DNA of 55,697 nucleotides from Verrucomicrobiota bacterium (GTDB taxonomy: Bacteria; Verrucomicrobiota; Verrucomicrobiia; Limisphaerales; UBA9464): assembly GCA_016871615.1 (NCBI GenBank), contig VHCX01000019.1, positions 1 to 55,697 of the forward strand, given 5' to 3'. Positions within the stretch are counted from its first letter, which is position 1; each line of letters opens with the position of its first letter. The notes under the pieces were generated by a model. It was not told where the DNA came from, searched no databases, and was given only the letters and a program-made list of their open reading frames with translations. Both the position numbers and the translations under genes were made by a program. This document shows, piece by piece, positions 48,561 to 53,052 of this stretch.

Positions 48561-50639
48561 TCACTTGCGCGGGCCGGCGAGCAGTTCGTTGACCAGCGGC
48601 TTGGCCCCGTAGACGCTCCGCAACGACTCCAGGATGCCGGCACTGTGGACCGACAACGCCCGGGCCTGCGTCTCCTCGTAGGCGAATCCCAGCACGAGCG
48701 ACTCGATGTTGCCGTCGAAGATGATGCCGACGAATTCCCCGGCGCGGTTGACCACCGGGCTGCCCGAGTTGCCCCCGATGATGTCATGGGTGGAAACGAA
48801 GTTGAACGGCACGTCGGCACGGATGGCCTTGCGTTTCTTGAGCCAGCGATCCGGCAGATCGAACGGCGGCCGCCCCTCCATCTCGGCGGACCGCTCGAAG
48901 ATCCCGCCCAGCCGCGTGACGGCCGGGACCGGCTTTCCGGCCGAGGTGTAGCCCTTCACCACGCCATAGGAGAGGCGGAGCGTGAAGGTGGCGTCGGGAT
49001 ACCGGCCCTTGCCCTCGAGGGCGAACCGGGCCGCGGCGATCGCCGCGTGCGCCTGCTTCTTCACCTCGGACTCGGCCTCCATGCGGCGGCGCACCTCGCG
49101 GGCCTCCGGGTCGATGGTCCTGGCCAGCTGGATGAGCGGATCCGCCGAGGCGGCAACGGCCGTCGCCCCGGCCTGATGGAGACGGCGGCGCTCGTCCACG
49201 GAACGCAACCGGCTGCCGGTGATGAGTTCCGCGGCACGCGCGCGGGGCGACTTGCCGGCCAGCACCTTCAGCACGGTGGGGTTCTGGGCCCCCAGCTGCT
49301 CGGCGAGATACGTCAGCGAGTCGGCTAGGCGCAGGATCTCCAGGTCGTCATGGATGGGCTTGTCGGAGAAGAGCCCCATCTCGAGGGATGCTTTCCCGGC
49401 CTCGGCGAACTCCCGGAGACGCTCCCCGTCGGCCTTCGGGTATTCTTCGGCGGCCCGGACCAGCGTGTGGGCGATGTCGAAGAGCTCCGACTGGAAGGCG
49501 TGGCCGAGTTCCAGCAGGCGATACACTTGCTCGTGTTGGGCGATCTTCGCCTGGGCGTCCTGGATCCGATCGAAAGCGGCGGCCGCCCTGGCAAAGTCCG
49601 GGTTGGCGGCCAACCGGACCCGCAGGGCCTTCTCCTGCTGTCGCTTGGACTCCATGAGCGCCGGATCGTACAGGCCGGCGTGGCCGCCATCGCGGGCCTT
49701 GCGGCTGTTCTGGATGCCGAAGAGCTCGTCCTTGGCCCGACGGGCGTTCTCGGCGCTGCGCTCGCTCCACGACCTGAGCAGCACCTCTCGGCGCTTCAGG
49801 TAGGCCAGAGCGATGGGGTACTGCCGATCACGCAGGTACTCCAACTCGGCGACCGTGAGCAGGCGTTCCGTGCGTCCCGGGTGTCCCGAAACGAAGGTCA
49901 ATTCACCCTCGGCGGCCCCCTTCTGGGACCACTTCAAGAAGTGGGGCACCTTCACCGGCTTCCCGTTCTCGTAGGCCCGGAACAGGCAGATATCGAGGTC
50001 GAAACGGGGATACTCGAAATTGTCGGGATCGCCGCCAAAGAACGCCACCTGCTGTTCCGGGGCGAAGACCAGACGGACGTCGGTGTACTTCTTGAACCGG
50101 TAGAGGTGGTAGGCGCCGCCCTGGTACAAGGTGACGACATCGGATCGGAATCCGGTTGCGTCGAGGGATTCCTTCTCAATGGCGGCCATCACCGCGCGCC
50201 GGGCCTTGGACGCCTCGTCGGGCGACATGCCGGCGGGAACGGCGACGTTGACCCGGGCCGTGACGTCCACGATGGACTGAAGGACGTTGAGTTCGAGGTC
50301 GACGCACGGGATCTCCTCGGACCAGTTCCGGGCATAGAAGCCGTCGCGCAGGTAGTTCTTCTGGGCGCTCGAGACCTTCTGGAGGGCGTCGGCCCCGACG
50401 TGGTGGTTCGACAGGACCAGGCCGTCTTCGCTGACGAAGGACCCGGAGCCGCCCGAATTGAACCGCACCGACGATTTCTGCAGATGCTCCAGCCAGGCGT
50501 CGGTCAACTCGAAACCGTACGTGGCCCGCACCCGCTCCCGGGGAGGATCGTTGTAGAGCCACATGCCCTCGTCGGAACGGAGGACTCCGGTGCCACAGAT
50601 CACCGCCAGCGAGGCGGCCAGGAAGGTCTTGCGCGACAT
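48561..50639 (-). CDS. S46-family dipeptidyl-peptidase (DPP7/DPP11 family)
   Basis: A 692-residue secreted serine peptidase from the ATG at 50637-50639, with a signal peptide (KTFLAASLAVICGTGVLRSDEG) and the S46 start GMWLYNDPP. The catalytic triad is in LVLSNHHVGADAL (His about 79-80), GGDPDNFEYPRFDLDICLFR (Asp) and DIIGGNSGSPVVN (Ser about 625). The residue 18 positions after the Ser is Gly (IIFDGNIES). In this family Gly there goes with hydrophobic P1 specificity (DPP7 type) and Arg with acidic P1 (DPP11 type), so a DPP7-like preference is inferred. It removes dipeptides from peptides in the periplasm. The gene is divergent from kup. Confidence 0.93.
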   Translation of the reverse strand: MSRKTFLAASLAVICGTGVLRSDEGMWLYNDPPRERVRATYGFELTDAWLEHLQKSSVRFNSGGSGSFVSEDGLVLSNHHVGADALQKVSSAQKNYLRDGFYARNWSEEIPCVDLELNVLQSIVDVTARVNVAVPAGMSPDEASKARRAVMAAIEKESLDATGFRSDVVTLYQGGAYHLYRFKKYTDVRLVFAPEQQVAFFGGDPDNFEYPRFDLDICLFRAYENGKPVKVPHFLKWSQKGAAEGELTFVSGHPGRTERLLTVAELEYLRDRQYPIALAYLKRREVLLRSWSERSAENARRAKDELFGIQNSRKARDGGHAGLYDPALMESKRQQEKALRVRLAANPDFARAAAAFDRIQDAQAKIAQHEQVYRLLELGHAFQSELFDIAHTLVRAAEEYPKADGERLREFAEAGKASLEMGLFSDKPIHDDLEILRLADSLTYLAEQLGAQNPTVLKVLAGKSPRARAAELITGSRLRSVDERRRLHQAGATAVAASADPLIQLARTIDPEAREVRRRMEAESEVKKQAHAAIAAARFALEGKGRYPDATFTLRLSYGVVKGYTSAGKPVPAVTRLGGIFERSAEMEGRPPFDLPDRWLKKRKAIRADVPFNFVSTHDIIGGNSGSPVVNRAGEFVGIIFDGNIESLVLGFAYEETQARALSVHSAGILESLRSVYGAKPLVNELLAGPRK

Positions 50640-50753: not shown

Positions 50754-50781
50754 TTGACAGGAAGGCCGGCTTTGGCATACC
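50754..50781 (+). promoter_or_regulatory. Candidate sigma-70-type promoter for the kup leader
   Basis: TTGACA at 50754-50759 is a perfect -35 box. CATACC at 50776-50781, spaced 16 bases away, matches three of six -10 positions including the central ATA. The predicted start near 50788 falls just before the c-di-AMP aptamer, as expected. The -10 box is weak, so this is tentative. Confidence 0.45.
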
Positions 50782-50799
50782 ACGCCCTCCGCAGCCGAA

Positions 50800-50937
50800 G
50801 CCTGGTCGGTGTCCGATCGAACGGGCGCGGGGGACCCAACGCCGGGGGATGAAAACGTCCCCATGGCATGGGGCGCAGGGTCGGAACACCGATCCGGGGC
50901 ACTTCCAGGCCCTAGCCCGTCAGCTAACCTCGCAGGC
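50800..50937 (+). promoter_or_regulatory. c-di-AMP riboswitch (ydaO/yuaA type) upstream of kup
   Basis: The leader carries the conserved core of ydaO-class aptamers in order: GGGGGACCCAA (about 50829-50839), CGGGGGATGAA (about 50843-50853), a GCAGGG segment (about 50875-50880) and the highly characteristic CCCGTCAGCTAACCTCGCAGGC (about 50916-50937). The closing helix P1 can form between GCCTG at 50800-50804 and CAGGC at 50933-50937. This class binds cyclic di-AMP and in other bacteria usually switches off potassium-uptake or wall-turnover genes when the ligand is high. Its position upstream of a Kup potassium importer is the classic context. Confidence 0.93.
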
Positions 50938-50982
50938 AATTGGAAGGGTATCCGGTGGCGTGCCGCTCGGTGATGACCGGCA

Positions 50983-51015
50983 GGCGCCCTCGGCGACCCT
51001 CGGTCGTCGTGCGCC
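50983..51015 (+). promoter_or_regulatory. Possible expression-platform hairpin between riboswitch and kup
   Basis: GGCGC/GCGCC form an outer stem, and inside it CGACC-CTC-GGTCG forms a second five-base stem. The structure lies about 45 bases after the aptamer and 130 bases before the kup ATG. There is no T tract, so it is not a standard terminator; it may be part of a rho-dependent or translational control region. Confidence 0.35.
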
Positions 51016-51144
51016 ACCGCCACCCATGAACACCCCCACCCGACCGGCTCGACGCCGGATCCAGGGGCCCAACGGCCCGGGAGTCCCCCCTACCACCACC
51101 TCGCCCGGGCCATCCGGCCCGATCGCCCGGAGGAGACCGAGCCG

Positions 51145-53052
51145 ATGAGCCATCCCACCTCCACCCCCACCGGCAGCCGGCTCGCCGGCCTGTCGATGGC
51201 AGCCTTGGGTATCGTGTATGGCGACATCGGCACCAGCCCGCTCTACGCCTTCAAGGAATGCTTCGCTCCGGGACACGGGGCCCCGGCCAACCCCGCCAAT
51301 GTCCTGGGGGTGCTTTCCCTGATCATCTGGGCGCTCGTCCTCATCGTCACCATCAAGTACCTCGTCTACGTCCTGCGGGCTGACAACAAGGGGGAGGGCG
51401 GCATCCTGGCCCTGATGGCGCTGGCGTTCCCCGAGGCGAAGTCCGGCCATCGCACCCGGTTGGCCAAGACCTTCGCCGCCATCGGCATCGCCGGAGCCTG
51501 CCTGCTTTACGGCGATGGGATCATCACCCCGGCCATCTCGGTGCTCGGGGCGGTCGAGGGGCTCAAGATCGCCACCCCGGGATTCGAGCGGTTCATCCTT
51601 CCGGTCTCGGCGGGCATCATCGTGGCGCTCTTCGCCGCGCAGCGCGTGGGCACCGCGAAGGTGGGCCGGATCTTTGGTCCCATCACCCTCCTGTGGTTCA
51701 TCGCCATCGGACTGCTGGGAGTCCGGGGCATCCTCCTGAAACCCGAGGTCCTGGGCGCCTTCAACCCGCTCCACGGTCTCGGCTTCCTGGCCGGACACGG
51801 CTGGGTCGGCCTGGTGGTGCTGGGCTCGGTGGTGCTGGCCGTGACCGGTGGCGAGGCCCTGTATGCCGACATGGGACACTTCGGGATGCAACCCATCCGG
51901 CTGGCCTGGTTCTGCGTCGTCCTCCCGGCCCTCGGACTCAACTACCTGGGCCAAGGCGGCCTGCTGATGGCGCGACCGGAACTGGCCACCGGGGCGTCGT
52001 TCAACCCGTTCTACCAGCTCTGCCCCGCTTGGGCACTCTACCCCACCGTGGCGCTGGCCACGGCGGCGGCGATCATCGCCTCCCAGGCCCTCATCTCCGG
52101 GGCCTATTCGCTGACCATGCACGCGATCCAGCTGGGGTACATGCCTCGCCTGCTCATCGAGCACACCTCGGAGCGGGAGCGCGGCCAGATCTACATGCCG
52201 CAGGTCAATTTCGGGCTGATGGTGGCCTGTCTGGGACTGGTCTTCGGTTTTCGGACCTCGGACAAACTCGCGAGCGCCTACGGGGTGGCCGTGACCTTCA
52301 CCATGGTGACCACCACCCTGCTGTTTTTCTTCGCCTCGCAACGGGTGTTCGGCTGGTCGCGACTTCATGCCTCGCTCGTGGCCGGGGCCATGCTGGTGGT
52401 GGAAACCCCGTTGGCCCTCTCCAACCTGCTGAAGATCCCGCATGGCGGATGGTTCCCGCTGCTGATCGCGGGTTCCATGTTCTTCATCATGTCGACCTGG
52501 AAGACTGGCCGTCGACTGGTCTGGGAGCGGCTGCGGGTGAGTGCCATGCCGGCCAAGAAGTTCGTCGCCGAGATCGCCCGCAAGGACCCGCTCCGCGTCG
52601 CGGGCACGGCCGTCTATCTGGCGGGCAACCCCAACACCACGCCGATCGCGTTGCTCCACAACCTCAAGCACAACAAGGTGCTCCACCGGCGGGTGATCTT
52701 CTTCACGATCAGCATCGAGGAGGTGCCGGTGGTGGACGCCTCCGAGCGGCTGGAGGTCGAGCGCATGGATGCCGGGTTCTGGCGCGTCCAGGCCCATTAC
52801 GGCTTCATGGAGACCCCGGACATCCAGGCGATCTTCAGGCTGTGCGCGGAGCACGACCTCGAGTTCCGGGAGATGGAGACGACCTTCTTCCTCAGCCGCG
52901 AGACCGTCATCCCCAAGTCGGGCAATGGCGGCATGAACCCATGGCAAGAGCGCCTCTTCTCGGTGATGTCGCGCAACGCCCTGAGCGCCACGGCCTACTT
53001 CCGATTGCCGGCCAACCGCGTGGTCGAACTCGGCATGCAGGTCGAAATCTGA
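51145..53052 (+). CDS. kup: Kup-family low-affinity potassium transporter
   Basis: A 635-residue membrane protein that imports K+ with protons. Family blocks are ALGIVYGDIGTSPLYAFKECF at the N-terminus, VLRADNKGEGGILALMALAFP, CLLYGDGIITPAISVLGAVEGL, VTGGEALYADMGHFG and NYLGQGGLLMARPELA. About twelve hydrophobic helices are followed by a cytoplasmic C-terminal domain (LHRRVIFFTISIEEVPVVD). A GGAGGAGA ribosome-binding site lies about ten bases before the ATG. The 357-base leader from the candidate promoter contains the c-di-AMP riboswitch, so expression should respond to that second messenger. It converges with the PfkB-family gene. Confidence 0.96.
   Translation: MSHPTSTPTGSRLAGLSMAALGIVYGDIGTSPLYAFKECFAPGHGAPANPANVLGVLSLIIWALVLIVTIKYLVYVLRADNKGEGGILALMALAFPEAKSGHRTRLAKTFAAIGIAGACLLYGDGIITPAISVLGAVEGLKIATPGFERFILPVSAGIIVALFAAQRVGTAKVGRIFGPITLLWFIAIGLLGVRGILLKPEVLGAFNPLHGLGFLAGHGWVGLVVLGSVVLAVTGGEALYADMGHFGMQPIRLAWFCVVLPALGLNYLGQGGLLMARPELATGASFNPFYQLCPAWALYPTVALATAAAIIASQALISGAYSLTMHAIQLGYMPRLLIEHTSERERGQIYMPQVNFGLMVACLGLVFGFRTSDKLASAYGVAVTFTMVTTTLLFFFASQRVFGWSRLHASLVAGAMLVVETPLALSNLLKIPHGGWFPLLIAGSMFFIMSTWKTGRRLVWERLRVSAMPAKKFVAEIARKDPLRVAGTAVYLAGNPNTTPIALLHNLKHNKVLHRRVIFFTISIEEVPVVDASERLEVERMDAGFWRVQAHYGFMETPDIQAIFRLCAEHDLEFREMETTFFLSRETVIPKSGNGGMNPWQERLFSVMSRNALSATAYFRLPANRVVELGMQVEI

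Follow-up and report, generated by a model that had tools for sequence, protein, structure and literature searches.

The riboswitches of the ydaO/yuaA class (RF00379) for cyclic di-AMP (c-di-AMP) habitually lead K+ importer, osmolyte or cell-wall genes, and those in the papers cited here are mostly transcription terminators, as far as the available text of these papers goes. Their occurrence before kup and in Verrucomicrobia was already predicted (PMC6488665, in the part available), so such a riboswitch before a verrucomicrobial kup, as first stated, is an ordinary finding. Here, we analyzed a 55,697-nucleotide (nt) stretch of contig VHCX01000019.1 (GCA_016871615.1), called the window, whose positions are used throughout. 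Its RF00379 riboswitch is followed by a leader open reading frame (ORF) that ends on the start codon of kup. The riboswitch itself is ordinary, but its expression platform, with this coupled ORF and an aptamer tail that has two rival partners, seems to be new.

Two described systems come closest. At the M. tuberculosis ppe2 gene, a B12 riboswitch is relayed by an AUGA upstream ORF (uORF), mainly through termination-reinitiation. According to the accessible portion of that paper, this was shown experimentally, as start-codon mutants lost expression and relocation of the stop reduced it (PMC11260477). The window likewise has a short ORF between the aptamer and the gene with an AUGA overlap (51026–51148). 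However, the ligand, aptamer class, phylum and target of ppe2 are all different, its uORF has a Shine-Dalgarno motif that is lacking in the window's, and its relay was established by experiment whereas the window's is proposed here from sequence comparison.

The other is C. glutamicum nlpC, for which there is evidence of a translational c-di-AMP OFF switch, a mode stated in the available part of the paper as previously unshown (PMC9960051). It shares with the window the aptamer class, the lack of a canonical terminator and an OFF switch that likely works on translation. In contrast, it acts on the gene's own ribosome-binding site via a CTCC-GGAG pairing, which its authors only proposed, its target is a cell-wall peptidase, and no leader-ORF relay was seen in that part of the paper. 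Among the matches listed from the open-access literature, in their accessible text, no c-di-AMP riboswitch relayed through a leader ORF was found.

The window resembles the ydaO/yuaA class in its full-length aptamer, conserved core, P1 helix, downstream K+ importer and the presence of a c-di-AMP synthase in the genome. It differs from the class in three respects. It has no T-run terminator, its aptamer tail could also pair with a platform hairpin, and its first start codon belongs to the leader ORF coupled to the importer.

Between the aptamer and kup lie 191 nt, 119 of which belong to the leader ORF from 51026, overlooked by the first-pass annotation of this DNA. We compared it with related loci (labeled by L numbers, L002 being the window's own genome) from the genus, family and order of the window's genome. 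In the genus alignment of leaders, an ATGA about 73 nt 3′ of the aptamer is invariant in 15 of 15 rows. The distances from this start to the kup start are 89, 98, 101, 107, 119 and 122 nt, one frame is kept in all 15 kup leaders, and the AUGA stop-start overlap is present in 14 of them.

We applied a uniform rule, by which a coupled ORF begins at any ATG 20–110 nt behind the aptamer, has at least 8 codons and stops within −25 to +12 nt of the importer start. By this rule, 36 of the 41 family kup leaders have a coupled ORF, as do 15 of the 61 K+-importer leaders from the order's other families (kup and kimA leaders; of 62, 61 had a usable start). For this difference, the value from Fisher's test is 2.8e-10, to be read with the relatedness of the loci and with a stop window that was chosen after inspection of the data. 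Where the importer starts at least 100 nt behind the aptamer, the rule finds a coupled ORF in 36/36 family kup leaders vs 11/36 outside the family. The five family kup leaders without a coupled ORF are L021 and four others (L025, L112, L133 and L139), where kup itself begins at the conserved site.

The conserved frame is present in 33/33 leaders too, but these loci were picked for having an ORF from the site. The count leaves out 8 of the 41, namely the four with kup at the site as well as L021, L012, L019 and L128, which were ambiguous. Because of this preselection, we rely on the unselected uniform rule instead. Comparison supports both the fixed place of the leader start and its stop coupled to kup.

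The aptamer's 3′ tail can pair in two ways, which were examined in 15 genus loci with 14 distinct sequences. Its UGGAAG (50941–50946) faces the aptamer loop CUUCCA in a pseudoknot. This is like the one in the crystallized ydaO sequence, where the accessible part of the paper notes a pseudoknot and we read the loop as CUCCUUC and the tail as GAAGGAG (PMC5393176). Its AGGGU (50945–50949) faces ACCCU of the platform (50996–51000). The two pairings overlap at 50945–50946, and ACCCU is part of the 5′ strand and loop of the platform hairpin, so the tail–platform helix would be incompatible with the hairpin and with the pseudoknot's outer part.

The tail–platform helix has 94.3% of its cells paired, with double changes in 2 pairs and 7 double-change cells. 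For three measures (cells paired, double-change cells and covariation score), none of 500 shuffles reached the observed value, and six slid controls had 0 double changes. In L013 and L023, tail column 166 changes from G to A, and its two rival partners, column 122 in the loop and column 220 in the platform, turn from C to U along with it. Nine distinct sequences have U-A at column pair 169/217 and five have C-G, a change from which the hairpin, taken by itself, can only lose (A-U to G-U). The three-way change and the change at 169/217 both argue for a real alternation of the tail pairings. Since L015 (C-G) is nested among U-A rows on the kup tree, at least two events are implied at 169/217.

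Beyond the genus, GCCCU is seen by eye in the platform of 16 of the 26 other family leaders. An exact complement of a leader's own tail 5–95 nt downstream is present in 19/33 family kup leaders, compared with 4.4 expected from shuffles and 3 for the sense control; 8 of the 41 leaders have no tail pattern and were left out. In L023 and L139 the complement is not the conserved pairing, leaving 17 of the 19. The family's non-kup loci have it in 2/18 vs 3.4 expected, one of the two being L022, a cut-off genus leader. In the other families of the order the switch helix was not found (2/115 loci, 17.2 expected). The two competing tail pairings have comparative support.

We consider it moderately probable that the riboswitch is a translational OFF switch for the leader ORF and that termination-reinitiation passes its effect on to kup. 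With c-di-AMP bound, the aptamer loop would hold the 3′ tail in the known ydaO pseudoknot. The platform hairpin, 16 nt 5′ of the leader AUG, would then form and hinder initiation. Without c-di-AMP, AGGGU of the tail would pair with ACCCU of the hairpin and open it, so that ribosomes begin the 40-codon leader ORF, terminate at the TGA overlapping the kup AUG and re-initiate on kup. Low c-di-AMP would hence increase K+ uptake. As long as the leader ORF goes untranslated, no ribosomes would be passed to kup, and the exposed C-rich RNA may also become a target of Rho. We infer the direction of the switch, the translation of the leader ORF and the dependence of kup on it. Of the modes raised by the first-pass annotation, the comparative evidence favors translational control, exerted on the leader ORF.

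Several observations weigh against this mechanism. As to the relay, L015, a close relative of the window, ends its leader ORF 20 nt before kup, and the leader AUG has no Shine-Dalgarno motif in 32 of the 33 leaders. Control frames for the 33-leader count gave 7/33 at +2, the +1 frame being trivially empty by the ATGA. In the window, the leader frame is open from 50678 on, so its openness at 51026 is weak evidence, and a frame-keeping shuffle already expects 16.8 coupled stops in 31. On these two grounds, a case for the leader ORF made from the window only was rejected as too weak.

As to the switch, two of the five shuffle measures of the tail–platform helix are unexceptional (as high in 131/500 shuffles for double-change pairs and in 500/500 for further pair types). 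The number of covarying events is small (two or three on the tree), and L013/L023 and the L026 group leave one of the end pairs unpaired. In imposed-state folding of 14 genus members, the mean unpaired probability of the 20 nt before the AUG is lower in the bound state for 9, equal for 1 and higher for 4. For 10 of the 14, the AUG region itself is more accessible when the bound state is imposed. The folding does not bear out the proposed direction.

Of the alternatives, an ordinary RF00379 switch by transcription termination survives best, and we hold it to be rather unlikely. Either Rho would act on an untranslated C-rich leader or the platform hairpin would terminate without a U tract, the leader ORF being a bystander or a Rho shield. 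The leader ORF region is indeed C-rich and G-poor (C 0.47 and G 0.29 in the window, G 0.15–0.26 in other genus members), which leaves room for Rho, and the imposed-state folding shows no closure of the leader AUG by the ligand. Moreover, by the accessible parts of the sources, the B. subtilis and B. thuringiensis c-di-AMP riboswitches terminate (PMC6488665, PMC9960051), and S. coelicolor rpfA does so without a canonical terminator (PMC9960051, PMC10117811).

Against termination, the window platform has no T run, as the first-pass annotation had remarked. The longest in 50954–51144 is 1, and five consecutive T occur before the first AUG in just 2/41 family kup leaders and within 120 nt in 10/119 order loci outside the family, so a T-run terminator was rejected. 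Pure termination would also leave unexplained the stop-start overlap and the four leaders in which kup starts at the site.

It is less likely still, and plainly improbable in our view, that the leader ORF arose by chance and kup initiates alone, with the riboswitch acting on kup's own start region over 190 nt. Such independence would fit the Shine-Dalgarno-like GGAGGAG before kup of the window, the Shine-Dalgarno motif before kup of L014, the unconserved leader peptide and the coupled ORFs in about a quarter of the leaders of other families. However, among the 33 family leaders examined, the motif is missing from the other 31 kup starts, and chance hardly accounts for the excess of coupled ORFs in the family under one rule or their presence wherever room exists. 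Nor would it explain a start site that is kept while its product varies between a gene of 143–147 amino acids (aa), an ORF of 30–63 codons and kup itself.

The peptide was assessed by differences at codon positions 1, 2 and 3. They number 41, 25 and 34 in the leader ORF (11 genus loci in four equal-length groups, pairwise counts summed) and 123, 41 and 463 in a 480-nt kup stretch compared in the same way. By these counts, the leader peptide sequence is not conserved in the genus and has no third-position bias. A functional leader peptide of 30–41 residues in the genus is hence not supported.

In five family members (L120, L132, L135, L137 and L138), the same site opens a 143–147-aa protein with 48 invariant columns among the 5 sequences. 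The kup tree places L127 as sister to L135, and the 63-aa ORF of L127 still resembles the N terminus of this protein (0/500 shuffles as high). Among the other short ORFs, the N-terminal similarity of L015 and L026, at 0.02, was unconvincing in 26 tests, and L127 alone stands out. For the long protein, no Pfam or NCBIfam family and no Protein Data Bank (PDB) relative was found, and our first guess of a bPH/DUF304 type was not borne out. Its single-sequence structure model has a mean predicted local distance difference test score (pLDDT) of 47.

The long protein is present in 17/245 order genomes, and 4 of the 17 loci have an RF00379 match within the sequence stretch examined. In L157, the ~145-aa protein follows a c-di-AMP riboswitch and precedes a kimA-like gene. 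It also lies behind a riboswitch-led SPFH gene (L264 with L227), and L263 is listed among such loci too. These neighborhoods suggest a role in c-di-AMP-controlled K+ or membrane physiology. That the leader ORF is itself a functional small protein, in a two-gene operon with Kup under the riboswitch, is highly improbable, for although the conserved long form in five relatives and its homologues beside the kimA-like and SPFH genes speak for it, the short peptide of the window and genus varies freely without the third-position bias of kup, and only L127 convincingly resembles the long protein.

The long form sits on four separate branches of the kup tree, amid short-ORF lineages. In our reading, a single old gene has repeatedly decayed into a coupling ORF, although the erosion is directly visible in L127 only. 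Parsimony speaks the other way, as four gains suffice whereas one gain with losses only needs about 7 by our own count. We prefer erosion nonetheless because a gene is lost more readily than it is gained several times over at one start site.

The fullest version of our proposal is more tentative than the translational OFF switch, and we give it somewhat less than even credence. Here the riboswitch would gate a leader cistron descended from a membrane-protein-like gene and control the importer only at second hand. Several lineages would have eroded that gene separately, keeping just the start site, the open frame and the stop-start overlap to carry ribosomes to kup. The aptamer tail and the platform would form a bistable switch made visible by the three-way covariation.

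Table 1. Positions of the riboswitch, platform and coding features in the window
Feature	Position	Strand	Basis
c-di-AMP riboswitch aptamer RF00379, full length 1–134	50783–50953	+	covariance model, 64.4 bits (gathering 38), E 1e-12
P1 5′ strand GCC, paired with 50935–50937	50794–50796	+	covariance-model alignment, letters checked
P1 3′ strand GGC	50935–50937	+	covariance-model alignment, letters checked
Aptamer loop CUUCCA, pairs with the 3′ tail (pseudoknot)	50902–50907	+	100% of cells paired, 1 double-change pair, 14 distinct sequences
Aptamer 3′ tail UGGAAGGGU	50941–50949	+	50941–50946 with loop 50902–50907; 50945–50949 with platform 50996–51000
Platform structure, outer helix GGUGGCG 50954–50960 / CGCCACC 51012–51018	50954–51018	+	window's own fold, letters
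Platform hairpin CGGCGACC-CUC-GGUCGUCG	50991–51009	+	98.2% of cells paired, 14 distinct genus sequences
Leader ORF of 40 codons, starts at ATGA, its TGA stop overlaps the ATG of kup (AUGA)	51026–51148	+	letters, comparison
GGAGGAG, Shine-Dalgarno-like, within the leader ORF 5′ of kup	51129–51135	+	letters
kup, K+ uptake permease, 635 aa	51145–53052	+	PF02705, PF22776, TIGR00794

The coordinates are collected in Table 1. The RF00379 riboswitch at 50783–50953 is genuine. A covariance search of the whole genome recovers the same locus, and no second match at E ≤0.001 was found in the 3.8-Mb assembly. The first-pass annotation had recognized ordered ydaO blocks including GTCAGCTAACCTCGCAGGC and pointed to the RF00379 model as a check; the blocks belong to the full-length match, whose score lies well above the gathering score and so supports the c-di-AMP class. 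We infer ligand binding by the aptamer, members of this class binding two c-di-AMP molecules and altering gene expression.

The P1 helix needed correction. The strands proposed earlier, GCCTG (50800–50804) and CAGGC (50933–50937), are complementary, yet they are not the P1 of RF00379, as 50800–50802 belong to the next helix. In the model alignment, 1 of the 4 P1 pairs is non-standard. The class features of P1, by this alignment, and of the loop-to-tail pseudoknot are both present. The outer platform helix is that of the window and differs in most genus members. On the other side of the riboswitch, a divergent peptidase S46 gene (48561–50639, minus strand, its start by our own reading) leaves about 140 nt for the riboswitch promoter.

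The downstream gene had been called kup, rightly so by K_trans PF02705 (E 4.6e-177) and by TIGR00794 above its cut-off. It lies on the same strand as the aptamer and fits the habit of the class. The supposed verrucomicrobial origin also holds, as the closest named kup relatives are verrucomicrobial metagenome-assembled genomes (L094, 'Verrucomicrobium sp. isolate 49614_E7', 92%; L032, 89%). A diadenylate cyclase, to be looked for by the first-pass annotation's own advice, is present; the sole DAC-family gene in the genome is CdaA by TIGR00159 (212.2 bits, cut-off 188.8). In the window's genome, cdaA immediately follows a folP-like ORF, so named by our reading of the translation.

At two of the loci, the leader and the gene disagree in their relationships. 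The leader ORFs of L007 and L008 are 1 base apart while their kup stretches have 99 differences in 480 nt, and kup of L008 groups with that of L004 on the kup tree. We read this pattern as recombination at the locus or a chimeric contig.

RF00379 matches occur in 45/50 family genomes, 111/245 order genomes and 15/288 of a phylum-wide draw, the window's own genome being counted each time and the searches of the relatives' genomes using stricter filters that lose weak matches. In the family, 41 of the 59 matches precede kup by tblastn. Among the remaining 18, contig ends truncate L022 and L028, and the others stand before SPFH-like, kimA-like and other ORFs, most of which were named by eye. In the other families of the order, 119 loci were taken and at least 6 further matches, weak or at contig ends, were left out, the matches listed for the order being a lower bound.

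Downstream of these 119 loci are 46 kup, 30 SPFH, 16 kimA-like and 10 second-type band-7 genes, with 17 matching no query. Three ORFs were searched against Pfam, one each of the SPFH, second band-7 and kimA-like kinds; Band_7 was confirmed on both band-7 types, and the kimA-like ORF matches the solved KimA (6s3k, E 2.3e-64). The SPFH/band-7 (flotillin-like) genes are thus the second commonest class behind the c-di-AMP riboswitches of the order, with 40/119 (e.g. L130:1071–2654, L124:753–2174). Within the open-access library searched, 'c-di-AMP riboswitch' and 'SPFH' occur together in no paper.

An ORF of 76–84 codons lies between the riboswitch and kup in a single further genus of the order (L162, L164, L185, L197, L199, L223 and L230). 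It is zinc-ribbon-like, PF09855, in the one tested (L223). A gene in this position is hence not unique to the window's family. Elsewhere, a subset of riboswitches has a common tail type, varying slightly around ATTAAGGGC, and stands before permease-like ORFs that resemble one another, in L231, L236, L239, L245, L249, L251, L253, L255 and L258. The L245 ORF matches AA_permease_2 and the L231 ORF matches no Pfam family or PDB chain. These ORFs are possibly an unrecognized type of K+ importer.

In summary, the kup leaders of one bacterial family are mostly without T runs and share a different arrangement that comparison supports. The arrangement gives precise mutations to try in a laboratory reporter. 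The scattered states within this one family, a full gene, a decayed copy, a bare coupling ORF or none, may show a regulatory uORF made from a protein gene, or the reverse.
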